In this document: in pieces, positions 6,620 to 47,100 of the stretch
Layout: every line of letters starts with the position of its first letter
How positions within the stretch are numbered: the stretch's first letter is position 1
Source: Heligmosomoides polygyrus polygyrus
Lineage: Eukaryota; Nematoda; Chromadorea; Rhabditida; Heligmosomidae
NCBI GenBank assembly: GCA_947396885.1
Contig: OX377206.1
Span: 16,057,466-16,121,465, forward strand
Direction: 5' to 3'
DNA: 64,000 nucleotides
Notes under the pieces: model-generated
The model's input: only the letters and a program-made list of their open reading frames with translations
Database searches by the model: none
Told to the model about the DNA's origin: nothing
Translations under genes and position numbers: made by a program

Positions 6620-7590
6620 CGATCTTCCACATTGCTGCAGAAGGCGCTAATATGTCCTGCTCGGACGGGGGTACTGCTAGAAAAGTGAAGCAAGCACAAT
6701 AATGATGACCTGTCCCCGGAAGGAAACTGCATAGAAAGATCCCGCATTGGGTAACTCAGTGTTAAGTGTCTGCAGCATACCACACTTTCAATTTTACTTC
6801 ACTTCAAAAGGATCGAGTAGAGTTCCGCTCCCCATTATAGTAGATATTTTCAAGTTTTATTTTTATTTTCCTTACATTAAACTTTTCCATACGACTCTGT
6901 CACCATATTCGCAATGAGAGGTTCTTCAGTCTGTCATTCGTTTATTCGTTGACTCCAGAGCACTGTGATTCGTTCGGGATTCAAATTTCCTAGGCAATTC
7001 TGCAAAATGGATCCCATGTGTGGACATGTCAAGTATTTTTCGATCAAAGAAGCACCTTTTTTCTGCTGCTTGCTGATTGTGCTATCAGACCCTTTTGCAC
7101 AGTAACATGCGCAATCCTTTGGACAGCCTTCTTCTTCGAAAACAGGATAGTCGCTCTTTGCTGCGATGTACTAGGCCTCTTCTCCGCAACAATCGTATTG
7201 AAACGTTGCATCAGCTATTCCGTGCGATGTCATCATCTCGAGTATCATAAGTCCTCAGCTATGTAAGTCTTCGAAAACAGTGGCTCTGCAATCTTCATGT
7301 TTTTCGAATTCTCCTGTCGCTCCTCAATAACGATCCTTCGTGCGGAAATGTGTGTAGTTGAGCCGCGGGGAAAAGACAAGAGAGCAAACCTTCCGGCAGT
7401 TTCTCGAAGTAGGTGTTGCTCTACGGGAATATGTACCAAGACGTGGACAGGCTTCGACCTTGTGACAGATCGTGACCGAAGCCTCGTTATAGACGCGAAA
7501 ATCTTACCACATAGGGTGGGATCTGCACATTAAAGATCGCCGCGGCGAGCTTGAGTCAAATTCAGCAATGCGGTGCTGCAAGAATTAAGT
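6620..7590. other. No recognised gene
   Basis: One plus-strand frame at 7079-7243 follows a TATCAG acceptor-like site and encodes a Leu/Arg-rich peptide ending in a stop. It cannot be joined in phase to the exons upstream and was not called. The rest shows nothing I can name. Confidence 0.35.
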
Positions 7591-7599
7591 CATAGTCAC

Positions 7600-8640
7600 G
7601 GCTGTCGATAAAATTTGGAAGAAGATTACTGGCGCGATACGCCAAGGGCGGGACACGGCATTACGAAGCCTGGACGTCGACACGTAGACAGGTAGCCATG
7701 GGTGCGGATAGGCGATGTGAAGGAAAAGGTACGACATGAGAAGGTGCTTTATCATGTGTTTCCCCATGGCACCCGATAACTTGCAAAAGTACCGGAAAGG
7801 AAAAAAGCTGCCACTAAAGGCACTCATTACAACGATGTCTACGAGAAGCTCGAACCTCGGTGAGCGGTATCTGTACCGACTTGCTACCAGACGCAATCTA
7901 AAGGCCGAGAATATTGAAACGTGCCTCGGTATCAGAGAGCGGCCATCTCCTTATGGATCAAAAGTAGGCGCTGAAGCGACAGTGTAATTACATAGGGAGG
8001 ATCTCGAGAGCTAGTGTTAGAGCTCATTCTTTCAGCAGCCTATCCGAGCTTCTACCCACGACCGAAGGTCACCGTGGACGAAGCTGAAGTGTTTATGAGG
8101 AAGACAGGCAAAGCGACTGGTTGCGATGATTTGACCGCGAATTTATGGGGGTCGAAGATCTGGTGCGGAGCTGAGTGGTTAGGAATGCTGTTCAACCAGG
8201 TTGTGGCAAAACGTGAGCGCTCGAGGGTCCCGAGAAAAGTACGACAATTGCCAATTGGAAGAAAAAGGGCAATCCTGCGTACGGCAGAAGTTGCCGTCCG
8301 ATATGCTTGCTTTTGCACAGTATGACGGCTTCTGAGAGTAACGGACGAACTCATGAAGTCGTCTGGCTGAGGCACCATGAAAAAGGCATGCAAGCTGCCG
8401 CCTTCGAGCGGAGAAGCATCGCGAGAAGCAGAAGCCGTTGCATCGTTAATTTTTGGAGTGGTCCATTGACCACGTGCCACCGATATGACACGCCATACGG
8501 CAACGTTCCCGGAGCAGTTGTAGAGTGTGAGCGAATGATTTACTCCTCCCCAAAGAGAGTGTTGCGAGCTGAAGGCAGGCAGCCTGCTTTATGCCGATGA
8601 CGTAATGCATGCTTGCAAAGATCGATTGATATCGTTCCTT
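7600..8640 (+). pseudogene. Degenerate RTE retrotransposon (RT region)
   Basis: Fragments in all three plus frames resemble the linker and reverse transcriptase of an RTE-clade element: a YLYRLA-type stretch near 7870, GKATGCDDLTANLW (8109-8150) with EWLGMLFNQVVA (about 8172-8210), and LLYADDV, the RT active-site motif, near 8585-8605. Many stops and frameshifts make it non-functional. It belongs to the same RTE lineage as the fragment at 23326-24167, not to the intact element at 10389. Confidence 0.7.
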
Positions 8641-10388: not shown

Positions 10389-13304
10389 ATGGGAAGGACG
10401 AGTACGGAGAGGCTGCTAAAATCTCAGGGCCTAACCAGGCTGCGCAAACTGAGAAGGACTAGGATGACGATCTGTACTTACAACGCCCGCACGCTTGCGT
10501 CGGAAGCATCCGTCGAGGACCTGATGATGCAAGCCAGGAAGATCAAGTACGACGTCATCGGACTGACCGAGACGAGAAGACACCACTCCCTACACGCCGC
10601 CTACGACTCCGGAGAAGAACTGTTCCTCGGAACATGCGACAGCAGGGGAGTAGGCGGCGTTGGTGTCCTCGTCAACACGCACTTGGCCATGAACATCGAT
10701 TCGTACGAGTCTCTGACAAGCCGAATCGGACGTCTGCGACTGAAGCGATGTGGCTCCGTGCCAGCCTTGACTGTGTTCGTCGCGTATGCCCCAACATCCG
10801 ACTACGACGACGAAGACGTCGAGGCCTTCTACGTGGAGCTGGAGAAGTTCTATAAGGAAGATCACACCTTCTACAAGGTGATCGTCGGCGACTTCAACGC
10901 CAAGATCGGGCCACGAAGGTCGCCGGAAGAACTTCACATCGGAACCCACGGTTTGGAGTGGAACGAGCAAGGTGAAAGGCTGTCTGAGTTTATCATGTCG
11001 ACCAAGACCATCCATGGAAACTCGCAGTTCCAGAAGCCTCCCTCCCTACGATGGACCTGGGAATCCCCCGGTGGCCAGTTCCACAACGAGATCGACCACA
11101 TCATCTTCAATCGCAAGTATTGCCTGACCGATGTCTCCGTTGTCCCCAAGTTCTACACGGGATCGGACCACCGCCTCCTTCGCGCGAGGTTCCGCTTTTC
11201 GCGTCAAGGAGAGAAGGCCGCGAAGTTCAAGAAGAGGAATCCCAGAACGACCATCAACTGGGATCTCCACACCTCTCTTGTCGGCCTTTGGGAAGATGCC
11301 GTCATGGACAACGTCGACGAGGAATACGATCGCTTCGTGCACCATCTCCACGATAGTGCTAAGGGAGCCGAGAGCTTAAAGACCACCAAGAGACGCCTGT
11401 CTCCGGAAACTCTTGAGCTGATACGCCAGCGTGGAGCAGCACGAGCGTCAGGCAACTACCAACTGACGTCCGAGCTTGCAAAGCTATGCAGAGCGGCGAT
11501 AAAGGAAGATCTCAAGGAGAGAAGGGCGGAAGTGTTGGCTGAAGCAGCAGAGGCAGGGCTGAGCATCCGCAATGCCCGCCGGAACTTCGCCAACTTCAAG
11601 ACCAAGATGACCGCTCTCCGACGTCCTGACGGAACCATCACCTCTTCCAGAAGGACCATGGAGAAAGTCATCCACGACTTCTACTCCGATCTCTTCGATA
11701 GCCACGTCCACCTGCCCCCATGCCATCTTCCGCAGGATGGATACGTCGTCCCCTCTGTTCTCTCTTCCGAAATCCGACACGCCATCTCGTCGGTGAAGAA
11801 ACGTACAGCACCCGGTTCTGACAGGATCAGAGCTGAACACCTGAAGAACCTCCCGCCAGCGCTCATCAACACCTTGACGCGGCTCTTCACACGCTACCTG
11901 TCCGAATGCAAGGTTCCATCTCAGTGGAAGACCAGCAAGACCGTTTTGCTGTACAAGAAGGGAGACGTGCACGACATTGGCAACTATCGCCCGATCTGCC
12001 TGTTGTCCGTAGTCTACAAGCTGTTCACTCGAGTCATCCTGAATAGGATCGGCCGAACGCTGGACGAAGGACAGCCATGCGAACAAGCAGGATTTCGGAG
12101 AGGATTCAGCACGATCGACCACATACACACCATTACGAAGCTCATCGAAGTGTCGCGAGAGTATAAGCTGCCGCTGTGCCTTACGTTCATCGACCTGAAG
12201 AAGGCATTCGACTCCGTCGAGACTGAAGCGGTCATGGAAGCCTTGCTCACCCAGGGCGTTCCTACTCAGTACATCAGGGTCCTTCGAGAGCTGTACAGTG
12301 GATTCACGACCAAGATCTCTTCATTCTACAACGACGTCGTCATTGACGTGAAGAGAGGGGTTCGACAAGGGGATACCATATCCCCGAAGCTCTTCAGCGC
12401 CACCCTCGAAAACGTCAAGCGCGAACTAGAATGGGAAGACATGGGAGTGAAGGTCGACGGCCGGCAACTGCACCATCTTCGCTTCGCTGACGACATCGTG
12501 CTCATAACACCGAGCATCAGTCAGGCGGAACGAATGCTGGACGACTTCGATCGTGTATGTGGAAGCGTTGGACTGCAGCTGAATCTTACGAAGACGATGT
12601 TCATGAAGAACGGATGGGTTTCTGATGCCCCATTCTCGCTCAACGGAACGAACATCTCCGAATGCTCCAGCTATGTGTATCTGGGTCGCGAAGTCAACAT
12701 GGCCAACGACCTAGCACCAGAGCTGAGCAGGAGGAAACGAGCGGCTTGGGGAGCTTTCAAGAACGTCGAAGAAGTCGCGAAGAAGACGAAGAAGGTCCGA
12801 CTCCGTGCCCACCTATTCGACTCCACTGTTCTTCCTGCCCTAACATACGCCTCAGAGACCTGGGCTATACGAAAGCAGGATGAACACGCGATCAGCGTCG
12901 CGCAGCGTAGAATCGAGAGGACGATGCTCGGAGTGACACGACTCACGCAAGTGAGAGAAGGCCTTCGGAGTTCCGAGCTTCGCCGACGTTCGAAGATCAG
13001 AGACGCTGTCGCATGGGCCAAGTCGTCGAAAATTAGGTGGGCCGGCCACGTAATGCGATTCGCAGACACCCGCTGGACGAGAGTCGTCACAGATTGGATT
13101 CCGCGGGATGTCAAAAGAACACCAGGACGCCCACCAACGCGTTGGTCGGACTTCTTCGTGAAAGCCCTGAACGACCGATATGACGCTCTTCGTGTCCCTC
13201 GAGCGAGGAGGATCCATTGGACCACTCTGGCACGCGACAGGGACGAATGGAGACGCTGCTGGCGCCCGCTCGAGCAAGTCGATGATCAACGGGACGACAG
13301 GTGA
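10389..13304 (+). CDS. RTE-clade non-LTR retrotransposon polyprotein, intact frame
   Basis: An uninterrupted 971-codon frame. Residues about 25-270 are an APE-type endonuclease: TYNART near residue 30, GLTETRR (Mg-binding Glu), [17 protein letters not shown], and the terminal [11 protein letters not shown]. Residues about 480-790 are a reverse transcriptase: [38 protein letters not shown], and the catalytic [10 protein letters not shown]. The C terminus holds [14 protein letters not shown] and [11 protein letters not shown], the usual RTE tail, ending in QRDDR. The length is close to the roughly 1000 aa usual for RTE ORFs. All core catalytic residues are present, so the protein could be active. 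It would nick genomic DNA and copy its own RNA by target-primed reverse transcription. Two closely similar but broken relatives lie at 57297-59099 and 53040-53745, and a decayed one at about 25970-26640 (-). Confidence 0.95.
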
Positions 13305-13803: not shown

Positions 13804-14423
13804 CTGTCAGCTACTTCCTACCAATATTTATTGCTTTAATCCTGAACATTCTGAATGGAATACTATGGCTGCTCAAAGCGCTACTGTATCGCAGTGCGAA
13901 AGTAGGTTAAGCAAAAAAAATAGCAACAGAAAAAATAAAAGTCGAGTCTTTTAAAATTGAAGCACATCGCGAAGCGTTGAGAGATGTGCCTGTGTAATTA
14001 GTTCACTGAGTTCTCTGGGAAAATTGCACGCCGTTGAGTTTCGAAGCTAGTCTTTCCTGCATCTCTTCCTATTTTGAAAATTTTCTCACATTTTGGATGA
14101 TGACTATGAGCTTTCAAAGCATTCTACTGATGAGACTCAACAAAATGTTCATTGAAACGCATTCTCATTGATTTACGCTGAAAGCTCGCATTTGTTTCTA
14201 GACTTCTAGACGAAGTTGAAGCAGCTATTTCAGCTTAATCCGATGCGGAGGTTTGCCCAGTGAGCGAGATACGGTGGATTGTGGGTGGTTCATGTGTTTG
14301 CACGCCGAGCTGTTTTCGAGGAATACGAGCTGGACGGTAGGTTCAGGGCCTATTTCGATATGTAGATAAGAGCCAAGATCACTCACTTTCTAGCTTAACT
14401 CCTCAAATTCTACGGATCTCCCA

Positions 14424-14655
14424 TGTTAGAGGGATCTCGCGTTGCTTGTTGTTGAGACAATCGCGCGTCTCTGGATGGGGGACAGGAGGGGGGGGGGGGG
14501 GGGGGGTACCCAGAGATACGGGTTCCTGCAGGGATGGACTTGCCCAGGATGTACCTTCTGCGTGGGCGTGGCATGTTCATGCACAGAGGAAGTGGATGTT
14601 TCTATGCAGGCGATAACCCTTGAATCTCAGCATGTCTTTGCTTACGTTTCGGCAT
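14424..14655 (+). repeat. Solo RTE 5' UTR fragment with G19 run
   Basis: Matches 9937-10200 in order: GAGGGATCTCGCG, the GATGGGGGACAGG region, GGGATGGACTTGCCC, TGCGTGGGCGTGGCATGTTC and CATGCACAG. A run of 19 G (14488-14506) stands where the intact element has only a short G stretch. No coding part of the element follows. Confidence 0.55.
14488..14506 (+). repeat. Poly-G tract, 19 G
   Basis: Uninterrupted run of G on the plus strand. Long G tracts of this kind are a known feature of nematode genomes and can form G-quadruplexes. Confidence 0.9.
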
Positions 14656-14780
14656 AACCGCCTCCTTCAGAGCCCTACGTAAATGGCCAGAAGGCCAGTG
14701 TTTCCCCTGTTTCTTAACGTTGGTGGGAAAGTTTTCCGCCCTCATACAATTTTTGTTCAAATTTGTTAATTTTTTCGTAA

Positions 14781-14850
14781 GGTATAAAAGGATAAGAGAC
14801 GGCGTTACTCAGTTCTTTTTCGGTGTACATATTCTACTTCCACGGAAGGT
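14781..14850 (-). mobile_element. SINE 3'-end fragment
   Basis: GGATAAGAGACGGCGTTACTC is the reverse complement of the SINE 3' end (GAGTAACGCCGTC-TTATCC), followed by a short piece of the body. It is truncated. Confidence 0.55.
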
Positions 14851-15279
14851 CGAGTTGGTTGAAAATACGGGCCTACTCACGCGAACACGATCAAGCACGA
14901 TGACCTGTTCAGCGACTGCCCACTACAATTTATTCTAGATAGAGTGTGCAATCCAATTGCCTTAAAGAAGAATGAGAATTGCTTTTCGGCAACATTTACT
15001 ATTGCGCTTATTATTTTAAATGAATTAAAAATAGGAACAGAATGAGAAGCAAAGCTAGCAAATGACTGATTCCTTACGATTAGTCGACTCCAATTGTTAC
15101 TTCAGCAGAACTCCTTGTAGTTGTTTTTATTGTAGTCAAATCTAAGACGGTAATGCTTTATTTGACTAACGTCTGCGATCCAACCAGTCCCAGCTGCCTT
15201 TTTAGGCCACAAGGCAAGGCATTCATACATACAATCTAGGACACAATCTACGACGAAACCCCACAAGGAGTTCAACTTA

Positions 15280-15385
15280 GGCCTATATTATACATCGGCG
15301 ACGTCGGTGTCAGTGTTGAACGGGTGCTACGCAGACCGTGCAACACTGTCGCCGACGTCATCGTCGACAGCGTATAACATAGGCC
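15280..15385. mobile_element. Harbinger-like MITE, 106 bp
   Basis: Terminal inverted repeats GGCCTATATTATAC / GGCCTATGTTATAC (reverse complement of the right end), with TTA duplications at 15277-15279 and 15386-15388. The interior is mostly palindromic, with CGGCGACGTCGGTGTC opposite GTCGCCGACGTC. Non-coding. Confidence 0.7.
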
Positions 15386-15737
15386 TTACTATGCCAAAAC
15401 TCACGGGCAGTCGAACATTGTCAATGTTACTTCAGCCATTAACCGAATATGTCTTCTGAACTGAGTTGCTGTTTCATGTCTGAGTAACTTTGCACATTTT
15501 TAAACACCGGATGTACTCGTGTTTGTGGCATAAAAACTGGTTTGCTGCGGAGAAGTTTTTGATATTGCATTTGTGGGATGTGATCACAGGCTTCCGGAGT
15601 GGAACTAAAAAGGGATCAATGGCTTAATAATCTGCGCTCATTGTTTGAAACGGCGAGGCACACGGCGACATCATTCAACTCAATGTGCAAATGCTTACTC
15701 TTGTTGACGAGCATCCTAATTGTAATAGAGTGTTCAG

Positions 15738-15920
15738 AAGCTCACCGACGATGAAATTCGCCTCTTCAAGCTCGGCGCGGAGGAGGAGGCCGCCTTTAGA
15801 GCCCGCATTCGCGGTATGCGCCGCGAAGTCGCGGGCTTTCTGGAGAAACATGCTGGACGCCCCCTGGGATTTGAGGGAGGGCTGGCAACACCTGATGCCG
15901 GGAGGCAGCGTCAGGCTTGA
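15738..15920 (+). pseudogene. Orphan terminal exon of a Ulp1-type protease paralogue
   Basis: A TGTTCAG acceptor at 15731-15737 opens a 60-codon frame ending in TGA at 15918. Aligned without gaps, about 15 of its first 43 residues match the last exon of the protease gene at 50862-51002. Shared features are the D-(D/E)-E start, a central Arg, the M-R-x-E pair and the final AGRPL. The exon start is in the same phase (0) in both. Codon choice is GC-rich and clearly coding in style. I found no catalytic exons nearby, so it is either a remnant of a decayed paralogue or the last exon of a gene whose other exons I cannot see. Confidence 0.55.
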
Positions 15921-16149
15921 AGTTCGAGAGCCGAAGGGGGTCGTACTGCGACCTCGTCTTAGTGGGTGGTCGTAATCTCTCCTGGTTTTAGCAGAAGACT
16001 GTCGACTGCCTCGTTTTTTTCTTGAGTTTAAGTGATGTGTCTAAGTTACCTTTTCCTTGTGACCTTAACACTGCAGGGATTCGATTGCTTGAGCGGGAAG
16101 TTTTGTTCACTGAAGGAGACCGTTTTTGAGCAAAAAAAGTGGATCCTTC

Positions 16150-17165
16150 AACGTTTTGAATGCTACTTGTTCTACGGTTCGATGAGGACCGGTCCAATTT
16201 TTGGCAAACTTTCTGAGCATATATTTTTCTACCTGGTGGAGCGACACTTCCTTCTAAATTTGTACTATGCAAAATTTTGCGTGTTAGTTGCTACTGGTTA
16301 CTTAAGTGATATACCGACAAAAATTTTTTGATGCGCTTTTCGAATTGATGACGGAGTCCCGAACATAGGATGGAATTGTCACGAAAGTAGTTTCTCCCAT
16401 CTAAAATAAAGAACATCAGAAAACGAAATTGTGCCACGAAATTATAACCCTTGGTTATTGTGCAGTAAAACAACTAAGGGATTCCTGCTCCCACCAGATC
16501 GTGTATCTGTATGAGCTGTTGGATAAGCTCCGGTTGATCTTGCACCGACATTAATGGAACGACTTTACAAAAATGATCATAACTGGTCAAGTTTTTCGAA
16601 ATAAAAAACAGACTTTTTTGAAAAATAGAAGAAAATTTATTTTCGCCACATAAAAAACTGTTTTCAAAAAACTGGGCTTCGTACGGAGCGGGGGTTGAAT
16701 TTCTGGTAGATTTTTGTCGAAAATCTAGTAGAAATGAAACTTCCGCATGTTGAAAAGAGAAAAAGCTGCAATGTTCTTATATGAAACAAAGACATTTGAT
16801 TTTTTTAGAGCAAGAACCCTTTGTTTATTATTGTAGCATAATCGGGGCTTAGAATTTTAGGGTACAATTTCGTTTTTTTTTATGTCATTTCCTTCAGATG
16901 GGCGAAAATTGCTTCCGTGACAAGTTCATCCCTCGCTCGCGACTCCGTCATCGATTCGAAAAGCGGTTTAAACAAATTTGTAGAAGGTTACCATTAGCAA
17001 CTAATGCTCGAAATTTTTTAGAGTACAAACTCAGATGCTGATGTCGCTTCTTCAAGTAGAAACATGTGTGTTGTCCGTGACATCCTGGAAGAATCTGCAG
17101 AAATTGAACCGGTCCTGACTGATTGGAAGACTGCTCTCTTTCTTGAACTAAAAAACAATGAGCAT
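16150..17165. repeat. Large imperfect inverted repeat, arms ~330 bp
   Basis: The left arm (about 16150-16480) matches the reverse complement of the right arm (about 16830-17165). Shared blocks include GAGGACCGGTCCAATTT / CAGGACCGGTTCAATTT, GTTAGTTGCTACTGGTTAC / ATTAGTTGCTAATGGTAAC, CGCTTTTCGAATTGATGACG / CGCTTTTCGAATCGATGACG and CGAAATTGTGCC / CGAAATTGTACC. The spacer is about 350 bp and AT-rich. No coding frame. It is probably a decayed fold-back transposon, and its transcript would form a long hairpin. Confidence 0.65.
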
Positions 17166-18359: not shown

Positions 18360-19530
18360 ATAATGAATATGTAATTAAATATGTTGTGAACATCTCTCTT
18401 AGCCTTCTTTGCAGTGACCTCATAGTGGTCAGTAAAAGTGATTTTCTTGTCTATAATAAATCCCAGATACTCAAGCCCACTGGGTGAAAAATGAAGCACG
18501 AGAAAGAGGAAATAGAATTCGAGAACTAGAATTTGCGGTGGCTACCTCTTGACTTTGAATTCTGCAGAGTGTATAACTCATCACTTGGTGGTGCTACCAT
18601 TTTAGTAATCATTTTGGATATCATCAGCAGACCATTCCGTTTCCTACGAGTCTCAAGACTGGACATGTTGAAAATTTTGTTGTGATTAGATGTCGAGGGT
18701 ATTGTTCAAATTCCCCTTGCGAGTTTGTGGAGCATCGTGTGGCCGTCTTGCTACAAAACAGAACACCTCAGAATAAACTACTTGGCTAGGCTAAAGCGGT
18801 TGTTAGAGAGAATGTCGATCCGGCACAATGGAGTGAGGTGAACTGAACTTCAAGATGACTTTCGAAAGTGGTCCTCAGCTGGACCCCGAGCCGGAGGAGG
18901 AACGTAGGCTGCCTCGATCCGTCCGTCGCCGTCCGTGCGATCGTCGCTCGTCCTCCCCGTCATGGGCTTGGCCCAGCTTAAATACCCGTGATGACTCACG
19001 GATCTCCTGAGTTCTCCTTGACAGTATCGTGACTGCGATGAGTCACGGCAGGTATAGTGGTGTAATCATAGCTTCTTCTTCTTCTTCTCGTAAGGTATCG
19101 GCACTAACTATACGTATGCACCAAACACGTGTGTAGTTGGATCTAGCTGACTTCAGAATTTCAAGATGAAAAGATTTAGTCTTCGGATCAGACAAATGTG
19201 GTTGCCATTTGTCTAACCACGCAGCAAAACGAAGTAACCTTTCTCTTTGTTATATTTTTGTATAGTTTTATGTCATCAGGAAACATTTTACACTTCATGT
19301 TGAATTTGTCTATGAAAATGTCACGAGCCGAACCTTGTAAGTGAAAGTCAATGACACATTTTCGGATGGATACTCTGTGAACAGTACAGTTCCTCAGTGT
19401 GGGGTGGTGTCAACCATGCTCTACATTTTCTACTCTTCCTATACCATCAAATACGTTTTTGTTATGGTGTATCGAAAGGAACTCTAGGTCACAGAGTATG
19501 TATCCGAAAAGGAATCGCTGTATGTTCACT
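18360..19530 (-). pseudogene. Degenerate non-LTR reverse transcriptase relic
   Basis: On the minus strand, near 19255-19300, a KMFPDDIKLYKNI stretch is a decayed RT active site (Y/F-A-D-D type). Near 18400-18490, GLEYLGFIIDKKITFTDHYE corresponds to the segment just after the RT palm in Jockey/CR1-type elements. Stops and frameshifts are abundant. It resembles the organisation of the LINE at 28319-31757 but is much older. Confidence 0.5.
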
Positions 19531-19539
19531 TGCTAGGAT

Positions 19540-21860
19540 CTGTTGGTGATAGTTTTACGTAAGACGCACCGTTGGCTAGTTATACTGTAGCTGGTCTTGC
19601 CGCATTGGTCCTAGAATCGCTCCACCAGCGCTCCATTGGTTGATGCGCTGAGTAGCTTATCAAGGTGGTCGTCCTTGCTTGAGTCCCTTTTGTTAAGGTC
19701 TACTAAGTCTTCGAGATGTAGAATATTTGTGACATCCTCTGTTACTCAGGTCCAAATAGAAAGTTTATGGAGAAAAAGTAAAATAGAGATCAAAATGGAG
19801 CTGGCACCGATGAAACCCATATTGACGACCGTTGCTTTTTTCCAGATGTCGATTAGCCCAAAAGCATTTTCGATCTTCAAAGATGTTCCACATCCTGAAG
19901 GAATTTTGCGGGTATTCGAATGAAGCTGAAAAGTTCTAATTTCGGTGACACACAGTTTTGATAGTGGCGCCATCTACTTCATCACTATATCCGAGGTTTC
20001 TTGCTTCATATCTGACAGTTCAAAGGTTGACACTTCGGTTTTTTGAAGAAAAGAAAAACTGTGACGCTTTAATAAGTTTATTCTACATCAATTTTCATTT
20101 TTAAAAATCAAAAACCCCTAATACCTTTACATTTCTTTTCTATGTAATTCAAGCCGAATAAAAACGAAAGAAGCTCACTGTTATGTTTATGTTTCTATAT
20201 TTAAAAATAAAAATGTCTGTTGTATCCAATTTTAGCTATCGCTTAAGGCCTAGCGACTGAAGAAATTAGTACTGTGGATTGGTTGAAAAATTAGATTGAG
20301 GTTCGCTTCAAAAATGTACAGTAATAGTTTTTATTTATTTTTACCTGCCTGTCTACAAGCGGCAGGCACATTCATGTCATTCACATTCTCAACGATTAAC
20401 TCGGGATAAAACCGTTACTATCGATCATCCTTGATTGACAGCCGATTTGCAGTGAAACTTCTTCACCCGGTCCAGATTCGTTTGATCCCCACCTCAATGC
20501 GACAAATGTGGGAAAGTCGAACCTATCGATCGATATTGACTTTTGCGCAGTACCTATATCCATCAGCTAGCATAATCGCCTAATACCCACCTTAATCGGT
20601 TACGTCAACTTCGGTGAAACATGCATACCTGTTGACGGAGACGAACCGAATGGTATTACTTACTTGATGAGAGGATTCCACAACTGATTCTCACCACAAG
20701 CAATCACCTTTGAAAGAAAATCGAGTTTAAAATTTTGGGAACTTCCGGAGATCATCAAGTCATACAAAAATTTCGAAATATAATACAATCAATAGAACAT
20801 ACAACAGAAATGACTCATTGTATCGTCTCCGCAGTTATGAGAGGCCATAATCACTACACTGAAAACAAGCCGCATAAAAGGTCTAAAAGATGTACTGAAA
20901 GTAAATCAGCGTGTAAGTATTGGAATGAGAGTAATTCAAACAGAAAACGCAACCTTTGGTAAACAGAAGAGAAGAACATGAAAAAAACAATACAAAAAAT
21001 GGAAAACAGATATGAAATGTTGGGGGCTAAATATAGAGAAATTCCTGAGTGAAGAACGCACTGAAAGGACGGCGAAGCGAAGCACAAGTGGAAGATAATG
21101 GTTCTGATTATTGATTATTGCTACAGCCTTAGGGAATCTGGGCAGGGAAAGAATTGCCCCAACTGGGGTTAGACTCCCTAATCTATGTATTTACGTAGTA
21201 CTGCACAGCTATATTCAGAGCAAAATGCCTTGACAGCACGGCTCGCAGGAGTGTTGAACCCTCCAGGAAATCCATAGATCACTGTGTATGTGCGATTGAC
21301 GAAAACTGTTGCAATTGTCAGAATTCCGTAATGCATAAAAGAGCTAAATTTGTCTGTCTGCATGTCTGTCTATGCGTCCATCCGCCCGCCCATCGGTACA
21401 AGTGATCGGTGCAGAGGCTTTACGTTTGAGCAAAACTGTTGGTAATTGCTTAGGGCAGGTATCACGCAAACATAACGAACAGTAGGCAATATTCGCAGCA
21501 AAAATCAGTACCCATTTTCGTCCCGAACTAGCATCCCAAAGAGGAAATTTACCGGAAATAACCATTTGAATATGTTAAGCGAGTCAAGAGTTTTTGCAGA
21601 AACTAGAGACCATTGATCGATCGAACAATAAGGACTTTAATTATCGATTTTTATTAAAGTGGACGCCAGGCAGGGCTACTTGTCTTTAAGTGGCTCTTCA
21701 CAGTGCGACTCCCGTAGGTGTGTTAGCCGGTAGATACCCTTCACACAAGCAGGAAGCTATGTGGATGTGTAACTCAACATCAACAGATAATATCGATTTT
21801 GTTCAAAACTGTCCACTGAGTGGCAATTCGACTAGAAACCCTCATCAGAAGGTCTCACGT
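19540..21860. other. No recognised gene
   Basis: AT-rich sequence with short frames on both strands and no exon that I can support by splice sites plus homology. I see nothing repetitive here that matches other parts of the window. Confidence 0.4.
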
Positions 21861-21924
21861 GAATATGGTTAAAACGATCACCAACAGCACGTGTTAACGC
21901 AGAGTTTCTGCTCTACGCTAACCC

Positions 21925-23325
21925 ATGCTGTGCGACGATAGTGACGACCACGAGGATGGCAATCCCTTGCCAGTAAGACCAGAGCAACAAGCGAACGCTG
22001 TTCACGACTCTCCAGATGACCTTGTGGCTCCAGACCTCAACATCGGCATCAGAAACGGAGTGCAGCAATTCCTTCGGATTCTCAACGCGCGTGTAAGAAG
22101 GGGGAATCTCACTGGATGGAGCAATGCGTGAGCTGGAGTATTCTGAAAAGGGGTTTCTCGGAGGCGATGACGGTGCCGCTTCCGAGGAAAATGGTAGTGA
22201 AAACAATCTGAACTTTGACGTGCAGGAGTCTTCAAAGCATCAGTACCTCTTCAAACCTGCTGGGCTGGTGCATCGGAAGAGATCGATGTGGGTCTCTATG
22301 TGGCTTCAACTAGAAAAAGTCCACACTGTTCCTATTATCAGCTTGGACTTGATTGTTCTACCTGGTCAAATGGTTCCCATGCAAATCCGGAACTCAGCCT
22401 CTCGTCCAATTGTGCAAAGGGCCATCGATGGAAGAAGCTATGTACCTCGGTTTGCTGCTGATTCTTCAAGGAGAACTTAACGTGAACAGGCCGCGGTACG
22501 GGATCTTATTACAGGTCAACAAATATTTGAGCGATGGGTTGACAACGAAGTTCCATGCAATGGGTCGACAATGACTCCGAGTCATGTATATGGAAAATGA
22601 AACTTCCAGCACTTCAATGGCTAAAGTCGAGGTTCTGCACGACTACGCTCGAACTCCTCTTGTGCAGGCTGTGTGTTCTGTGAAACTGTGAAATTTGCCG
22701 AAGAGAAAAAGCTGTCTATGCTTTCTGAGATGTGCAACATTCCTTCGTTCGTTGCGGAGAGTACAAACTTGGATAGTCAGTGTGATGAGCTAGGATCTTG
22801 GATAAAATGTGATTCTCGAGAGCCAAATTCAGGGAGCCCTGAATCAGAGTCCGATCAGCTTCAGCTAGTGGGCGGCTAGAAATATGGACGAAATACGAAC
22901 ATCTGTTCGAAGATGAAACGAATTTACGTATCGCGTCGCTCTTAAACCTGGTTGATCAGATGACAGACCTCATGTGTCGAGGATGTGGTTTGCTGATATG
23001 CAGTGTTCGTGACATTTGTCATCATGAATAGTAAAGGAACGAACTCTCATTTTGTTAATAGCGCGGGCTATATTCACGATAGCTCTACTGTAGCCTTGGC
23101 GCAAAACTTCATTTCAAGGGACCAACCCTGTGCAAAATTCAGTTGGTTCCCAGGATGCAAATGGCAGACCATTGAATGCCGATTCAGCCAGGACCACCTT
23201 GGATGGGAGTTCACGTCTCGCAGCAAAGTTTTATGGAATAACGAGAAAGGCTGTTGTTCCCGCAAAGCCAATTCTGATCAAGATGAGCAGGCCTATCTCT
23301 GTCTTTCGAAGTCTCGGTCGGTAGG
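21925..23325 (+). pseudogene. crbn: Cereblon (LON + CULT domain) processed pseudogene
   Basis: Cereblon is the substrate receptor of the CRL4 ubiquitin ligase. Order of matches: an acidic N-terminal stretch (CDDSDDHEDG, 21928 on); NFDVQESSKHQYL (about 22208-22247), like the conserved NFD...SH.YL of cereblon; the LON start LIVLPGQMVPMQ (about 22352-22385); AMGRQ then a TGA stop (22572) and RVMYMENE; and the CULT domain with one zinc pair CRGC (22975-22986), HFVNSAGYIHD (about 23051-23083), SWFPGCKW (about 23142-23165), HLGWEFT (about 23197-23217) and FYGITRKAVVP (about 23232-23264). The three pocket tryptophans survive, but the second Cys of the distal zinc pair reads Ser (CRFS). At least four frame breaks and several stops kill it. 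No introns interrupt about 1.1 kb, matching the length of a cereblon cDNA, so it looks like a processed copy. Confidence 0.85.
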
Positions 23326-24167
23326 TAATGGGTCTGCGCTCTTCGCACTACTCTTCGTCGTCGCTATGAATGTCATATCGCGTGATCTTCAGCAGCCTGT
23401 TACTTTATGCTGATGATGTAACACTCGCTAGCGACGACAGGATTGAACTCTAGAGGCAGGTACACGTGTCGTATGATCGCTTGGAGAGATTTGGGCTCAA
23501 GCTCAACATGAAAAAGACCGAGTGCCTGACTACAGACGAAAATGAGTCTCGCTCCATTAAGTGAACCGCATTGAACTATCACGTAGTTCGGTTTTCAAGT
23601 ATTTGGGATCAGCAGCCGCGTCGTTGAAGAGAACTCACGAATGAATGCAGCTTCGTCCAAATGGCGCTCTCTGACAGGAGCGCTCTGCGATAAGAAAATA
23701 CCAGCACGCCTAAAGTCGAACATCTACAAAAGGGTCGTCCGACCTGTAGCTATTTACGGAGCTGAGTGCTGGCCCGTTACTAAGAAATTGAAAGGCGCCT
23801 CAGCGTAATGGAAACGAAGATGCTGCGGAGGACGGCCGGTGTTACGCGTTTGGATCGAGTAGGCAACTACTCCATACGGCAGAGGTTGGGTGTCACCAAA
23901 AGAGCCTCGCGCATCTGAGAAGATGCGCGAGGCTCGTCTGCGATGGTACGGCCACGCGCAAAAGATGACACCGTTCGAAAGGCTGGTCTTAACCTTGATG
24001 TGTCCGGGAGGCGCCCACGAAGGCGACCAAAACAGCGGTGGCTTGATACATTGCATCAGGACTTGAAGCTGGCTAGGCTGCACCCTGATCAGGCATTTGA
24101 TCGGGGAAACATTCCAGGAAAGCGGACCCCGCAGCCAAGCGGGACAAACGCTGAAGAAGAAGAAGGA
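23326..24167 (+). pseudogene. RTE retrotransposon 3' end fused to the cereblon copy
   Basis: Begins at about 23326 with GSALFALLFVVAMN, continues through LYADDVTLASDD (RT active site, about 23405-23440) and LKLNMKKTECLTT (about 23495-23535), the RPVAIYGAECWP block (about 23737-23775), the MREARLRWYGHAQKM block (about 23920-23970) and RPRRRPKQRWLDTL (about 24010-24055), and ends with a short GAA repeat at about 24152-24166. This is the complete C-terminal part and natural 3' end of an RTE element, broken by frameshifts. Same lineage as 7600-8640. Confidence 0.8.
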
Positions 24168-24459
24168 TAAAACGGTCAACACACATTGCAACAAATGAAC
24201 AAATTTCCAACCACTATGGATCCATTTTCTCGATTCTTTACCAAAGTTGACCGCCACAAGATGTTGGAGTCATACGGAAGTGTTGTTACATGTATGTATA
24301 ACTCTTGTAACTTGCCGTCAATATCAATCGTTCCACAATTATCGATCGACATTACTGATTTTTCTCCATGGATAGCCGTTCACAGATGAAAGCACATGAC
24401 TGTGGTCGTACTTCGCGGCAAATGAATATCGAGAAGTTATGAGAAATAGTTGGCTAATA

Positions 24460-28478: not shown

Positions 28479-31300
28479 TCAAGCGAGCGAATGCTCAGAT
28501 AATCCTAAGAGATTCTCGTTTTGGGCTAGTAATAAGTTGAACTCCCGCAAGCTTCTATAGGTCAAGAATGTTGATCTGACTGTGGTCCTCGCTACCGGCA
28601 CATATAGCTGAAGCTTACCTCTCCTTGTTCTAGTCAGATGGCCTCGGAAAAATATGCACGGGTTTATGTGCACCTTTTGGGTGAGAATCTTTAAAAGCAT
28701 CTTGAGATCGAATGATTGCCTTCTACATTCAAGAGACTTTAATCCCAACATCCTGTTTCTTTCTCGGCCATTTGGGATTTGCGAGTAGTCCATGCCAAAG
28801 CATCTCATTACTGCTTTGCGAGTGAAATTATTCTGAATTCTTTCGAGCATGTCAATGTCTTTCTTCTTGAGAGGGTTGAACACAGTTGTTCCAAATTCAG
28901 CTATCGGCCGCACATATGATTTATAAGCCCGCAGAAGGAGATCAGGATTATTGCTCTTCAAAACTGAAAATGTTGTAGGTGCGAAAATTTGCCATTTTTA
29001 CCAAAGATTTGTAGTGAGCGTCAAAATTCAGATTTTTGCGTATTAAAAATCCAAGATCACGAACCTCGTCAACTACTCTAAGTGTTGAATTCTGTAGTTT
29101 GTAGGCAGGGAGAGAGACAACATTTCGGCCACCAATTACTAAGCAGCAAGATTTCTCAGGTGCAAGTGGTAGTTTCCACTCATTCGCCCAATTGGAAATG
29201 TAGTCAATCGCTGTTTGAACGCAAATAGAGTCTTGGTCTTCTTTGACAAGTTTATAAATCTTTAAATCATCTGCATACATTTTGCATGTGACTCCAAACC
29301 TGGAAACTGTGTCTGGAAGTTCATATGTATAAATAAGGAAGAGGAGAGGAGAGAGCACTCCGCCTTGTGGAACTCCAGTACACGCATTAAAAACGGAGGA
29401 GAATGCTCCCTCAACTTTAACCTGATATGTCCTTCCAGTAAGGAAGCTGCGCGTCCAATTAATTACCATAGGGTGAATACCGACCATGCTCATTTTGCAT
29501 AATAATTGTGGTATCGGGACTCTATCGAAAGCTTTGGAAAAGTCAAAATATACCACATCAACGCGGTTCTTACTTTCCATTCCTACAGTCCAGTCATTGA
29601 GGGAAGTAAGCATTGAAGTTTCAACAGATCTACCTGGTAAAAATCCAAATTGGTTATCTGAGATTATCTTATTGGCTTCAAGATGCCTTAGAATATGTTT
29701 CTTAACGATTTTTTCCAAACGCTCGGGCTAGAACTGATGTGATACTTATTGGACGATAGTTACGAGGGTCGTTTAAAGGAGCTTTCTTGGAAATAGGAGT
29801 GACGAACGCATGCTTCCACCTTCTGGGCACCTCAGCTGTAATGAAACTAAAATTGAAAATATGCTCTAATGGATAAGCTATGTGGTGCAGAATCCTTTTG
29901 AGAAAACTCAACGGAATGAAGTCTGGGGAGAGAGAACTAGACCTTGGCCACTTTAAAAGAATTTCATAAATGTGCTCCTTATGAAACCACAAGGAAGACT
30001 CCATTTGAGAAGCACTACGAGCGGGAACTGAATTTGTACTCACACCCGCTTGAGCCTGGCTTTGAGACGGTTGCGAGTACGAATTCGTGAACGTTCCAAA
30101 TTGTCTTAGGAACTGTGAAGCTAGTAAATTGGCTTTGTCCTGAGGTGATGAGTGACAGAAGCCGCGTTCGTCAATCAAAGAGTGGATTGCGGAATTGTTT
30201 CCACTACGCGCATTAACGTATCGATAAAATTTGTTTCGATCCGTGGATCCGAGAAGTTTCTTCTCTAAGTAAACCTGATATCTAAAGGTAGCTCTTTCCA
30301 ATTTTCTGCTGTACACAGCATACTTACTCCAGTCACTTACATCGTTGGTTGTGGACGCCTCATTCCATAAGCAGGTGCGATAATGATTCATCCTCTTGAG
30401 GTAGTTGGGAAGTCTTAGATCATTCTTCTTTATTCTGACAAGAGGGACAAACAACTCTATAACGTGATGGAGAACGGCAAGAAAGGTCTCATATTTGTCG
30501 TCAACTGACTCCAGATTATATATGCTACCTATCCAGTCAACGTTAGAGAGGTATTCTGTAATTGCGTCATAGTTCGCACCCATAAAGTCTCGTTTACACA
30601 CGAAAGTTGGGCGATCTGCCTTAAGATAGATTTTAAAGGATACTGTAGTATGATCGCTATTCCCTAAAGGTGGACCAACGCAGACTTCGCCTACAAGATT
30701 TTGACAGTTGCATAAAACTAGATCAAGTACAGTTTGATTTCTAGTAGGAGTGGTTACTAACTGTTTAAGGTCATGCGATTCAAACAAATCGCGAAAAACA
30801 TTTGACGTTCGACATGTGGTGTTCAATAGATTGGGAATATTGAAATCACCAAGAACAAGACTTGGCTCAGAACACGAGGAAAAGTCGCTAATTGCTTTTG
30901 CCAGTTGAACAGAACCAGCTGAGTCGCAACTGGGTGCTCGGTACACTCCAATTACTCGGAACAAATTGGAGCGAAACCCTACATCACATACTAAAATCTC
31001 ATACCTATCCTTAACAGATTCGTGGAAAACCAAATCACATGTTAAGTAATTTTTTACGAGCAGTAGTATCCCTCCGCCTCTCTTGGAGTTCCGGTCACAC
31101 CGCACAGGCATATATTGACTACAGGCTATTCCTAGGAGAGGATTTACTTGGTTTTGTGAGGTCAGCCATGTTTCGGTAAGGAGGACCACGTCGAAGTTGT
31201 TTTCACAAAGGTTGAGAACCAGAAAGTTGCAATTTTTTACTAGAGATCTTATATTCGAAAGTAAGCATCTCAGTTCACATCTGGATTTCCTGCGACATCT
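28479..31300 (-). pseudogene. LINE ORF2 (endonuclease + RT), two frameshifts
   Basis: From about 31290: LLSNIRSLVKN, LLTETWLT (catalytic Glu), GGGILLLVK, VIGVYRAPS, LVLGDFNIPN and GNSDHTTVSF form the APE-type endonuclease. RT motifs follow: NYRPISITSV, NQFGFLPGRS, VVYFDFSKAFDRVP, GVPQGGVLSPLLF and CKMYADDLKIY. The first break is at about 29710, where an extra base in a G/A run shifts the frame within the RT. The second is at about 28955, between TYNIF and KSNNPDLLLRAYKSYVRP. Otherwise the frame is well preserved, so the copy is fairly young but dead. Confidence 0.85.
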
Positions 31301-41100: not shown

Positions 41101-44100
41101 ACGATGACGACGATGCTACCACCGTTAGTTTAATTTCACGTACAGTTCCATTCAAGGCAAAAAGAAGAGAATGCGAGAAGCAGCCTTTGTCGGCTAACTG
41201 TGGTAATCATGAACCCATCTGGGCTTGATGACTTCATGAATACTCCCCAATCCTTAACTCATGCCGGTCTTGTACTATGCATTGACCGGTGCTGGATAAA
41301 ACAATTCCTCCATAACTTGCCCTTGGGAAAGGGTTGATCAAGAATCTATTCCGTGCTCACCAAGATTACCAGAGCAGACATTTTAACTTCTGTACAGCGT
41401 ATTTTACTGCTACTAAACATTCACAGTGGCAGGTTCTTTTCTGATCGCATTTGCCAATGTTGCTTAATCTTCAACAGTGCCTTCATAATTTTAGCAGGAC
41501 GCTTGGCTCTTCTAAGCATTTGATGGGCTCCGCAATAGTTTTTCGAACTTTGAAGTTAATTATCGAAGTAACATATACACAGTGGCATCTTCCCCTGTTG
41601 CAAAATTCTCCTGCTAGGTTGGTCTGAAAGCCCTGAGTTGATCGGCATTTTTTTCAACATTGATTGTTTTTTATTCAGCACGAAGTTTGTTCAACAATAT
41701 ATTTACCACCGTCAGTCGCTACTCCCTAACTAATGGGTAAGGTAGAAATTCTCTTCTCCCAGAACTGAGGAGAATGGAGGTCGAAGAGTTCACCACAGCT
41801 CTTCCCACTTCAAATTTTATAATTTTTTCTCAGATGGGAATGTCTTAGGGGCGAAATAAGTGGTAGAGGGATCAATATCCTACTATACTAGGGATCAATA
41901 TCCTACTATCAGAGGGATCAATATCCTACTATATATTATCGGCTAATGTATCACGTGTCCGTCACGGGGAGGTGGGACTGAAGCCAAGCGATGCCTACGA
42001 CAGTGCACCGTATGCCAGCCGGGCCTTCTTTGAGCTTAACCACGGGCGGTTTCTGGTGAACTATATCCTTGGCGGCGGATCACTCGAGTGTACGATACAT
42101 TCAGCGGGCAGCGCGTCACGATATGAACGGGGATCAAGTGCGAAGCGTAGGAATTCAGAAGACGTGCCCTAGACTTCATTCAACGCGCGTAGAAATTCAT
42201 AAGACGTGCTGAAGACGTCGTACAGCGTGCGTAGGCAGTCAGAGTACGTGATGAAGGCGTCGCCCAACGTGCGTATGGACTCAAAAGACGTGAGGAAGAC
42301 GTTGTCCAAAGTGCAGCTAAGGATTCAGAGGACGTGACGGAGACGTCGCCCAACGTGCACAGGGATTCAGAAGACACGCCGAAGACGTCCAACTTGCGTA
42401 GGGATTCCGAGTAAGAGGGACCAGTCAAAAGGGGTTCAGCAAAGGAGGACCACTAGAAGGGGATGGGGAATAAGGGAGACCAGTATTTTCCCTCAATATC
42501 GCGCAGTGTGTGTCGGGCTTCTGAAGACGGGCCACAGACGTCGCGACAACGTGGTGATACGTGAGTCCGGACTCAGTGTCACATGTAGGTTCTTGACTCT
42601 CACTCCGCACATAGGTAAGGAAGCATTAGCGGGGGTGGGGAGGGGAGGGGGGGGGGGGGGGTGGAGGAGGTGGCGACTATAGGACTCGGTTCGGAGGAGT
42701 AATATTACCGTCGAAAAACAGTGTCGTACGTCGACCTCTCGACCAATACCGATTGTTTTTATTTGTTTTTCCGGATTAAGCAGATCCGATTGGGACTCTC
42801 GCCATCACGTAGAGAACGGGTACTTCTGAGCAAAAATCGCCTACATACGATAGATGTTGGATGGGCTTCATAGGACCAGTGAAGATTCTGCCCTACTATA
42901 TCCCGCTGCACTAATCTATATAGTAAAACCGGTTTTTATTTGATAAAATTAAGAAGGCCTGAAGGGGAATGGAGGAAGATTGGGGTTGTTCTATTCTTGG
43001 GGTTTGGAGGCTAAGCCCCAACCAGACGTTTGGCGGCGGCTAGGTCACTTAACGTCTGGTCAGCGAAATAAAGAGCGTAAAGAATTGCGTCCCAGCACTG
43101 CTCTTCCGACCTTTCACGGGTCTCTTTAGCAATATGTGGCCACGCCTTATCGTGGAGTAGGTGAACAGAAGCTAGTCTTGGTTGTTTTTCTCGTAAGGCG
43201 AGAGCCACTTTCTGAAGCTGCTGGGTTGCTGGTGACGGTTTTTCCTTGCGCTGGCAGCTAGAGGAAGCCACACGGCACGAGGCGTGTTTAGATCGTAGGC
43301 GAGCCAGCTCCCATCTCCAGTGATCAGCTCCTCAGGAATCTCCTTTCAGTGCGAATCTTCTTTCGGAGGAAAGCCTGGCAGATGCATACCTGAGTGAGCC
43401 GCTTGCTATCAGTAAAGACATGAGGAATCCAGCGAGTCAGTACTTTTCTGCACCCGTGGCATGGAGGCGACTGAGATATGGATGTGCACCCTCCCTCGCC
43501 TCCCAGGTTAGCGCTCGTAGACTGCTGGTCCCGAATGTGCGGGCGCTAACCTCTGGATCCTCCTTGACAGCGTCGAGAGTGACGGAGTTTTCAACCGTGG
43601 GGAGAGTTCAGCTAAAGGCTCGCCTTCGAAGTCCGTGTCTCCTTTGAAGAGAGCTAACCACTGCTTGATTGTGCTGTTGGAAGAGCTGTCTTCTCCTGAT
43701 GCGCCGTTAGTGATTCAAGCAACTGCTGTTGCTGCAAGCCGCCTGCAGAGTGATGGCCTGAAGGTGTTCTTGTGGAAGGAAGGCAACGTGTCTACGTATG
43801 CCTGACCTAAAAAAGTTTCGAGAATGATCTACACCTACATCAGACGGTAAATCTCGACCACGGATCAAGAGTGGAAAGTTGTGGAACATTCACAGAATCG
43901 GCGCAAGACTTCCTGACCAATCTATTCGCCGAGAAGGCTATGGTGACTAGTTTCACTATGTAATAGAAATCAACAATGGCAAAATCGCAAGCAATGCATT
44001 GCCGAAGTGATTCAAAAGGTTGTATAGGCACAGCTTGAAAAATCTTCAGAATGACCACTAAGGCACATTTACCTGTTTTCGCTAACTAGCTTCAAAATTT

Positions 44101-47100
44101 TTGCGCTCAGGTGTCAAACCTCAACTTTTGCAGCATTTTATTTATAAGTTAAAAATAAGGAAGCCCTTCAAGAAAATTTCGACATATGACTCAAGGGTGT
44201 TCCAGGAATGTTGCCACTATGCGTGCGATCTTACCTTACATTTCTTGCCATTACAGATATCTTCTCCACGGCTTAGCTGAGATGCCTATAAGCAGTAGGT
44301 AGTTCTGAGTTGAATCTAGGGGGTAGATCTAGAAAGTTGTAGCCACGCAATTTTCGGTCAAAAAGTTCTCGCGCCCCCCAATCGATACCTATTCCTACAA
44401 TGGTGCTGAACCGCTTAAAGGCGCAACTATAACCGTGAGCTAATGCCACGAAGTCCATCTTAGACAAAATTTTAAAAAAATAACATGTTGTCTCATTTTT
44501 ACTTATGGCACCACCTCTGGCGCAAAGCTCTTGAACATTTCGTACTAGCAAACTTTTCCGTAAATTACAATTACACCAGCAACCGAGCAAACATGACAAA
44601 CGTTCAAGACGCGGTCTCGACATCAACCCCTTCGCAAAATCTTAAAGCACTACTGCTTTCCAAAATGAGCTAAAAACCTTTCTGGTGCTAAGAGGTTAAT
44701 ACCTTAATGACCCTTCAAACAATTTTATTTAAAAAATGGCATATCCTGCATATGTAACTAGACCCTAGCCTGTTACTGCACTCAAATCTAAATACAATTG
44801 GTTTTTCCATCCTTATTGTCAGATTGTCTATTTTAAGAAGGAAGAGTGCGGAGTTCGTTTTCCGAATGGTGTCTCCATCACAGATGACGATCTTCGAAGG
44901 GTGCTTGCACCAGGGAGCATGATGACTGGCGCTCTAGCCTCTGTTCTATTTCGCCATTTTTTGCCAGTCTATAAAATGTGCAGGTTTGCAGTTAAATTTT
45001 ATCGGATAACATGCATGCTGTGAAAGAGATATCGGACATGTTTATTGTTAAATTTTTTTGATGATTTCGTATCGCTTCATATTTTTTTCTGTGGACATTT
45101 CAGAACTGGGGGAATCTATTTCTGTCATCCGGACGCATATTCGACTATGAAAGAAGCGTATAGGAAATTTATGGGTAGGAATCCGGTTATTCTACCGAGG
45201 GTACGGTCACTGACTCCATTAACACGGGAACAAGTGGGTGCGATCATCGCATGGTGTTCTTCAGGTCGCTGCGTATCTCAACAGGAAAGGAAAATTTCCT
45301 TTCTACCTCTGGAGGCTACACCATTCCAACATATCTATGATCCCTATTTGCTCCAGCGGCCACTGGTAGGAAAATTATGTTGACATCAGAATATTTCACT
45401 GCGAATTCGCTAATTCTCACCGGTCTAAGTTCCCTTCGCTTCAGGGTACTAGCCATCGTTCAACTGCAGAAAGCACATGAGGTATGGTTTGGAATTAAAT
45501 TCGAATCGCAAAGTCGAAAGAACTGAAAAATAAGAGCGATCTATCCTATTGTACTTTATGATCTCTCACTCTTTATTACAGTAAGACAACTGAGCAGATA
45601 TAGAATTAATGTCGTATCTCAGCTAACCAATCTGACATCGGGTTTTCGTATTACGCTGGAGTACGGCTAGTCACCCGTACCTGCAGTATGTTGCTGCAAA
45701 AGTGTGTGAGGGCCCCAACCGTTTCACGACACACGTGATATTCAGGCGACTGCCGCGTGGGACAGCTCGTATTTTTCCCACGCTCCGAGTAAATATGAAT
45801 AAATAAAATAATAAATAAATAGAGATGAATAAAACAGTAACCAACGAAGTTCCCCATGAACCATCTTGACCACAGATGTAAGTGGACTTAGTGATTAATA
45901 TTGTACTATTAAGTGTTTGATGGGAGCGTGTGGCGCAGTCGGAGGAGGCGCGACTCTCACGTGCACTCGACACCAGATTCCGGTTCGGATTTCCCGCCTA
46001 GGCCAACCAGGCCTTCCATCCCTCCGGGGTCGGTGAATTGGTACCAGACTTGTCTGGGAAGGATAAAGCGCTGACTTGTTCATCGGCTGGCCACCGCAAG
46101 TCATTGTATGGCCAGATACGCATTCATTCGCCTCCACGACTGCCCGTAGAAGCAGAATGCGCTGGCGCATCCCAGAAGGGATTGAGTAACGCCGTCCTTT
46201 ATCCTTTATCCTTAAGTGTTTGATAACTTTCCATGAACTGTTTTTATGATGGTATCCGCCGACGTCGTCGGACAATCTCCTACGCGGCAAAAAGCATCCG
46301 AGGACGTCGACAATGTCGTGAAAGGTTAACCATAGGGCAGGCCCGCAGAGCTTGCAGTCGCAGATGATTTGCGGCCGCATCGCTTTGCCTGTCTGCGCTC
46401 CACAGACCGCGGCAGGGATCGGCCATAGCGCAGACAGAAGGCGGGAAAGCGAATAGTAGCAGTAGGTCCCCACTGAAAGGAGTACAGCACCTCTGCCGCT
46501 TGATTCGAGCAAGACTCGAGTGCACCAGTGTGCATGAACTGCACGCTTTATGAGTTCTGCCGTCCGCCGCCAGTCGGCTGCCCCAAAAGGGTGCGGAGGC
46601 CTTAGGAAAAACGTGTTCGTCGAAACCTCGATTACAATAAGGACATTCATACCAAACCTGCCAAGCAACGAAGACTAAAACTTGCCGTTTCTCTCAAAAT
46701 GCCCCGGTTTCATGAAGGTCGAACCTGGACATTGTTTAGGCTTAACTTCCGACTTTATATATGACAGCCTCATTTAACGTGGAAGTACTCGAACAAAAGG
46801 AGAGCTTTCCGGAACGTAGTGATTGGTTTAAGCGGTATGCAAAAAACCTTCTTGCGCTCAAAGTGGTTGAAACAAAACCATACTAAAGGAATCGATTCCA
46901 TCTAGATTTCGGTTTCAGGTTCTCAAGAGCCGATTGATTATTGTTGATAGTCTGTATCACGAAGAGATCAACAAGTGAGTCAGACGTTAGGAAAGCTCTT
47001 CCTTAATTGTGGCTTATTCTTCAGCGAATGTTGTTCAGATTATTCACATTCCGAATAGCGTGTAGAGCCCATGAAATCGTGAGAACGGCTCTGAAAGCCA

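Follow-up and report, generated by a model that had tools for sequence, protein, structure and literature searches.

A cereblon retropseudogene joined to the 3′ end of an RTE-type element within one target-site duplication in a nematode genome

The window analysed here is a 64,000-nt stretch of a nematode genome (C60:16057466-16121465 in a 656-Mb assembly). Read 5′ to 3′, the locus of interest within it consists of a short direct repeat, a palindrome, a copy of cereblon cDNA, the 3′ end of an RTE element with its GAA tail, and the second copy of the direct repeat. The features are as follows (window positions):

21870-21880, + strand: target-site duplication, 5′ copy TAAAACGATCA; 10/11 identical to 24168-24178 and at the same place in the sister copies L002 and L003.
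21882-21932, no strand: palindrome between the duplication and cereblon, read from the sequence; neither cereblon nor RTE.
21932-23321, + strand: intronless cereblon retropseudogene; parental cDNA that begins at coding sequence (CDS) nt 23, includes the stop codon and ends at approximately +26 of the 3′ untranslated region (UTR).
22960-23260 (limits approximate), + strand: CULT (thalidomide-binding-type) part; three Trp retained, second Cys of the second CxxC changed to Ser.
23317-23330, + strand: inner joint; GTCGG present in the parental UTR and in 6/7 RTE copies printed, the next 8 nt ambiguous.
23330-24167, + strand: 5′-truncated RTE 3′ end; C-terminal part of the reverse transcriptase (RT) protein and 3′ terminus, with the GAA tail at 24153-24167.
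23897-23940, no strand: 20-nt inverted repeat in the RTE part; in the window and L002, not in L003 or the RTE copy L006.
24168-24178, + strand: target-site duplication, 3′ copy TAAAACGGTCA, directly after the GAA tail.

The 472-amino-acid (aa) read-through of the cereblon part, with X at every frame change and at the read-through stop, matched 14 proteins at E ≤ 1e-3, the best being P0001 (1.4e-206) and the other 13 being proteins named from strongylid nematodes. The CULT piece alone matched solved cereblon structures with E = 5.1e-13; it retains the three Trp residues, and its second CxxC reads CRFS. Pfam LON (PF02190), which is found in 12 of the 14 relatives, scored 21.3 bits on the broken read-through, under the curated cut-off of 28.7, and Pfam Yippee scored 15.4 bits, under the cut-off of 26.6, so that the cereblon identity rests on the CULT structure match, the protein matches and the alignment to the parent gene.

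A genome search with P0001, in which all 22 first-look candidates were scored, gave 25 matches that fell into two groups only: C60 pieces in the three copies of the chimera and exon-sized pieces on contig C39 (75813766-75820411). The latter mark the multi-exon parent that had been sought in the same assembly, at C39:75813766-75820414. Its model, with exon ends picked near the edges of the DNA matches at GT/GC-AG so as to fit P0001, comprises 12 exons with an uninterrupted 470-aa frame and introns of 816, 89, 58, 1134, 1505, 695, 59, 56, 58, 709 and 57 nt. The encoded protein is 99.1% identical to P0001 and ~80% identical to Haemonchus contortus cereblon, which makes a strongylid nematode the most likely source of the DNA; it has CxxC motifs CRGC and CRFC and a Trp triad spaced 0/+6/+20; the worm lineage, credited at first with having, or having had, a three-tryptophan cereblon, therefore has one today. 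The presence of cereblon in worms, and hence the drug-target angle, is not new: the CULT-domain paper (PMC4287342) already aligned C. elegans cereblon, and a literature search on worm cereblon gave no title with the word cereblon among the matches listed.

Alignment of the chimera to the parent produced 12 collinear blocks, one per exon, at 84-95% identity for the window copy and 85-94% for both sister copies, and all 11 parental introns are missing in all three copies. The cereblon part is a processed copy of the C39 gene, and a multi-exon gene lying beside an RTE element was rejected because the introns are absent. The broken, intronless homologue of the initial annotation is therefore real, with revised limits: homology to the parent starts at 21932, not at ~21900, and ends at 23321 or possibly 23328. 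The first 22 nt of the CDS are missing and the palindrome occupies their place; no spliced leader was recognised in the copy by eye. The cereblon part has no poly(A) tail; it stops within the 3′ UTR and runs into the RTE. Because it lacks a poly(A) of its own and the GAA tail is that of the RTE, this retrocopy differs from the ordinary poly(A)-tailed kind, which points to a chimera. In the parent, TTTAG stands immediately 5′ of the ATG, which we take to resemble a spliced-leader acceptor motif, and AATAAA lies at +331 past the stop codon. Shortly after this AATAAA, in the sequence downstream of 75820414 on C39 (L045), ATGGCCGACATCAAGCCC fits the start of an RRM protein (MADIKP...) that is fused to cereblon in gene models of other strongylids (P0013, P0014); the parental cereblon and the RRM-protein gene may share an operon.

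The RTE part follows in the same transcriptional orientation, joined directly to cereblon with up to 8 ambiguous nt at the joint. It comprises 838 nt of a ~3133-nt element, is truncated at its 5′ side and ends at 24167 with the family's own terminus, ...GACAAACGCTGAAGAAGAAG, in agreement with the complete 3′ end and GAA tail first described. No RTE-protein-related stretch, as an RTE 5′ portion would be, was found directly upstream of the cereblon part. Identity to many genomic RTE copies is ~78-83%, and 88-89% over ungapped columns against one copy. A full-length copy (~3.13 kb) begins GGTGGCGATGTCC, and one copy, L050, carries Exo_endo_phos (2.9e-06) and RVT_1 (1.2e-17) in one frame. Endonuclease and RT in one reading frame, a short 3′ end and a GAA tail are RTE-type features, and RTE is the clade name that both the initial annotation and we presume for the element. 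The copies L004, L005 and L006 are 100% identical over 1.1-2.0 kb and L007 and L008 99.9% over 2.4 kb, so the family has very young copies. The 40 genome matches scored, the best of 4825 first-look candidates, comprised 3 full chimeras and 37 RTE-only copies, none of which starts upstream of query position 1443 (window 23312); within these best 40 of 4825, and in the genome protein search, no cereblon pieces occurred beyond the three chimeras and the parent. The 20-nt inverted repeat at 23897-23940 is absent from L003 and L006 and arose after insertion as a local mutation.

The inner joint lies 26-74 nt past the cereblon stop codon, inside the 3′ UTR of the last exon and far upstream of the AATAAA. 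After its stop codon the parent reads ...GAGGTTTCGGTCGG followed by GTCGACC; six of the seven RTE copies printed read ...ATCTCTGTCGG followed by AGTACATCAAGGGTCTGCG, L006 having CTATCGG; and the chimera reads ...AAGTCTCGGTCGGTAGGTAATGGGTCTGCGCTC. GTCGG is a microhomology between the parental UTR and those six copies, and the 8 nt that follow it in the chimera are either UTR-like GGTAGGTAATG or decayed RTE. On one reading the switch took place at the shared GTCGG, and the eight bases after it are RTE sequence that has decayed; on the other, cereblon extends, after an internal loss, into a further stretch of the UTR, GGTGGGTAATG, whose end lies 74 nt beyond the stop codon. On both readings the mRNA would have been entered inside its 3′ UTR. 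A joint well before the AATAAA, together with the missing poly(A), indicates that RT entered the mRNA internally.

At the outer ends, TAAAACGATCA (21870) and TAAAACGGTCA (24168) are the sole + strand sites in the window that differ from the post-tail 11-mer by at most one base, with one more site on the - strand. Among 3000 random placements, an equally good match at the expected distance arose in ~0.1% when the interval was 130 nt, in 1.6% when it was 1500 nt and in 3.6% when it was 3000 nt, and 7 of 20000 resampled flanks gave such a match in a 64-start interval. The left duplication is found at the same place in L002 and L003, the L003 duplication being 8/11 by reading. Among RTE copies with both ends in view (which leaves out L006 and the C39 RTE copy, each with one end out of view), the duplications measure 16 (L004), 8 (L005), 18 (L007) and 17 nt (L008), lengths in which ± ~2 nt are common with the tail. 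All four begin where the GAA tail ends or slightly within it, and the 11 nt of the chimera fit this pattern. At the inner joint (23281-23360) the best match to the post-tail 11-mer had 5 mismatches, and the best 9-mer direct repeat between the upstream edge and the joint had 1 mismatch, with 47 of 200 shuffles as good or better. A single 10/11 duplication brackets both halves, as the initial annotation had stated, and separate duplications for the two halves were looked for and not found.

Between the left duplication and cereblon lies the palindrome, ~51 nt with a 23-nt arm, a 6-nt loop (TTTCTG) and a 22-nt arm, and a folding energy of -19.5 kcal/mol in the window, -33.1 in L002 and -30.6 in L003. 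An origin as the RTE 5′ end or the cereblon 5′ UTR was rejected, since the best matches are 10-12 nt with E of ~0.05 or more, the full-length RTE has the different start given above and the parent has TTTAG before its ATG. A dispersed repeat was rejected because the 33-nt core, with up to 3 mismatches allowed, has no genomic occurrence outside the three chimera copies, and an Rfam RNA because a search of 21700-22100 gave no match at E ≤ 5. In L003, paired changes in both arms keep the complementarity, as quasi-palindrome correction would give.

The whole feature with its flanks recurs at C60:15996059 (L002, 92%, + strand) and C60:16161563 (L003, 89%, + strand). The three units align at offsets of ~82-83 kb and are tandem segmental duplications; most of the 400-nt chunks printed are 97-100% identical among units, local exceptions including chunk 3201 (85-86%), chunk 4401 (95% in one unit), 14401-16801 (94-100%) and 44001-50001, where the downstream unit falls to 88%. 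All three copies have the same joint, palindrome and left duplication, along with six frameshifting CDS indels in common, and the feature was disabled before triplication. Over 1342 gap-free coding columns, 52 substitutions relative to the parent are identical in all three copies and 136 are private to one copy. The shared substitutions fall on codon positions as 11/9/32 (P = 8e-5) and the private ones as 44/39/53 (P = 0.31), and the two spectra differ (P = 0.02); the shared spectrum fits a parent under constraint, and the private spectrum fits dead copies. A functional intronless cereblon gene was therefore rejected, given the six shared frameshifts and private changes flat by codon position. 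The simplest history would be one retroposition, decay of the copy while the parent stayed constrained, tandem duplication to three, and separate neutral decay. Three copies of one event replicate nothing, so the sample is one event.

Between copies the cereblon part is ~7-8% and the RTE part 4-6% diverged, with most of the unit far closer. The divergent patch that holds the chimera spans window positions ~16.8-24.8 kb, at ~87-98% identity and mostly <96%; L002 and L003 are 99.2% alike in their 5′ flanks and 93% alike in their cereblon parts. We would guess that gene conversion homogenised the rest of the unit and left the patch divergent.

We consider it probable that a single insertion by the worm's RTE machinery, with a template switch to cereblon mRNA, produced the feature as a two-part chimeric retropseudogene. 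The chimeric retrocopy proposed in the initial annotation is thereby supported, and the structure of the feature suggests that the parts were joined by template switching during target-primed synthesis, not carried in on a pre-made chimeric RNA. In such a course the RTE nuclease would nick the target, and the RT would prime at the GAA tail of the RTE RNA and copy ~840 nt back into the RT domain. It would then leave the RTE RNA for a spliced cereblon mRNA, at a 3′ UTR point 26-74 nt past the stop, and copy this up to CDS nucleotide 23, whereupon the product would be sealed between one ~11-nt target-site duplication. The surrounding ~82 kb, with the already disabled copy, would later be duplicated in tandem to give three copies. 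An RTE part with its native terminus and tail, followed by the duplication as in L004, L005, L007 and L008, counts for one RTE-made insertion; the imperfection of the duplication (10/11, with a 3.6% chance in 3 kb) and the eight ambiguous nt of the joint count against it. Template-switch chimeras characteristically, though not indispensably, have a 5′ part that reaches the 5′ end of the RNA from which it was copied. Here 22 CDS nt are missing and the palindrome stands in their place, which weakens a reading with a single switch, since a single switch explains neither.

A tripartite product would accommodate the palindrome: RT would have switched twice, from RTE RNA to cereblon mRNA and on to a third, hairpin-forming RNA, and fusion to host mRNAs would be a regular side activity of nematode RTEs. 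We regard this as unlikely, while giving it some weight. Also unlikely is a two-step course in which a cereblon allele received a 5′-truncated RTE in its 3′ UTR, RTE machinery retroposed a readthrough transcript, and this donor allele then disappeared. The order and orientation of the parts would be the same, and the RTE 3′ end is what an RTE RT is expected to recognise. At the parent locus, however, the 2-kb RTE 3′ piece has no match across 11.5 kb, the tail would be expected to be followed by the remaining UTR and a poly(A), neither of which is there, and an extra insertion plus a loss are required. Lost donor alleles have been considered for L1-mRNA chimeras (Law and Burns, PMC13174262).

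It is very improbable that a cis- or trans-spliced cereblon-RTE RNA was formed and retroposed later. Nematodes trans-splice widely, and the first candidate breakpoint has a GT after it in the parental UTR (GGTCGG then GTCGAC). The cereblon part, however, extends through the last exon and its stop codon instead of being confined to first exons, the RTE part is 5′-truncated rather than near full length, and by eye the seven RTE copies printed have no polypyrimidine-AG acceptor at the joint (ACATCAAG followed by GGTCTG). Splicing has been proposed for many human mRNA-L1 chimeras, in which 6 of 17 junctions lie exactly at splice donors and 4 are not judgeable (PMC13174262). Least probable of all are two independent events, a cereblon retrocopy followed by an RTE at its 3′ end (or the reverse) with the outer repeat arising by chance: each kind of insertion can occur alone and the repeat is just 11 nt with one mismatch, yet the cereblon part has neither poly(A) nor further UTR, the inner joint has no above-chance duplication, and the duplication is placed outermost, where single RTE insertions have theirs.

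Mammals and a fungus have already yielded chimeras of LINEs with cellular RNAs (Gogvadze et al. 2007, PMC2104539; PMC13174262), so the single-insertion chimera favoured here represents an RTE and nematode case, not a new mechanism. Like MINE and WEIRD-MGL of Magnaporthe grisea and similar mammalian products, as described in that report, it has a 5′-truncated LINE to which a cellular RNA is directly attached in matching orientation, the two lying inside one short direct repeat, 10-20 nt there; unlike them, it involves the mRNA of a single host gene, entered inside the 3′ UTR, an RTE-type LINE with a GAA tail, a nematode host and later DNA triplication (PMC2104539). With the human mRNA-L1 chimeras it shares a sense mRNA 5′ of the LINE and one target-site duplication; in the human set, as given there, 15 of 17 lie at transcript starts, the L1 is close to full length in most, and 6 have their end at a splice donor (Law and Burns 2026, PMC13174262), whereas here nearly the whole 12-exon CDS adjoins a truncated LINE and no splice site was recognised. 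Equid LCORL retrocopies were likewise multiplied by segmental duplication, to 17-35 copies, most LCORL transcripts coming from them, in contrast to three copies here, all with shared frameshifts (PMC10249811). Retrocopies are also described from Caenorhabditis (PMC3532220), where, unlike here, 'chimeric' denotes a retrocopy that recruited adjacent coding sequence; its main text contains none of the terms RTE, retrotransposon and target site. Among the top-ranked titles and abstract starts of open-licence papers, a thin basis for priority, we found no nematode or RTE-made mRNA chimera. What is new within the known class of LINE template switches is the RTE-type element and the nematode host. 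The case is unusually complete, with the parent gene, present-day RTE copies, duplication and joint all in one assembly, and it suggests that host mRNAs can become switch templates for RTE-type elements, as they can for L1 and fungal MGL. The retrocopy itself is dead; the rate of such events becomes countable in large strongylid genomes.

Elsewhere in the window, other RT-encoding fragments lie at 7435-8479, 11715-13151, 58194-58700 and 29263-29664 (- strand). They are 26-42% identical to the RTE protein (one 31-aa piece 58%) and probably belong to other families; the stretch 7600-8640, once thought a possible sharer of the RTE 3′ end, was rejected as a sister of the chimera's RTE. Window positions 18669-20296 (~1.63 kb) are absent from both sister units, where the flanks meet with ~3 nt overlap; this is probably an insertion whose empty site is seen twice. 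Near the equivalent of 18669-20296, the sister unit at 16.16 Mb carries a different extra ~1.4 kb.
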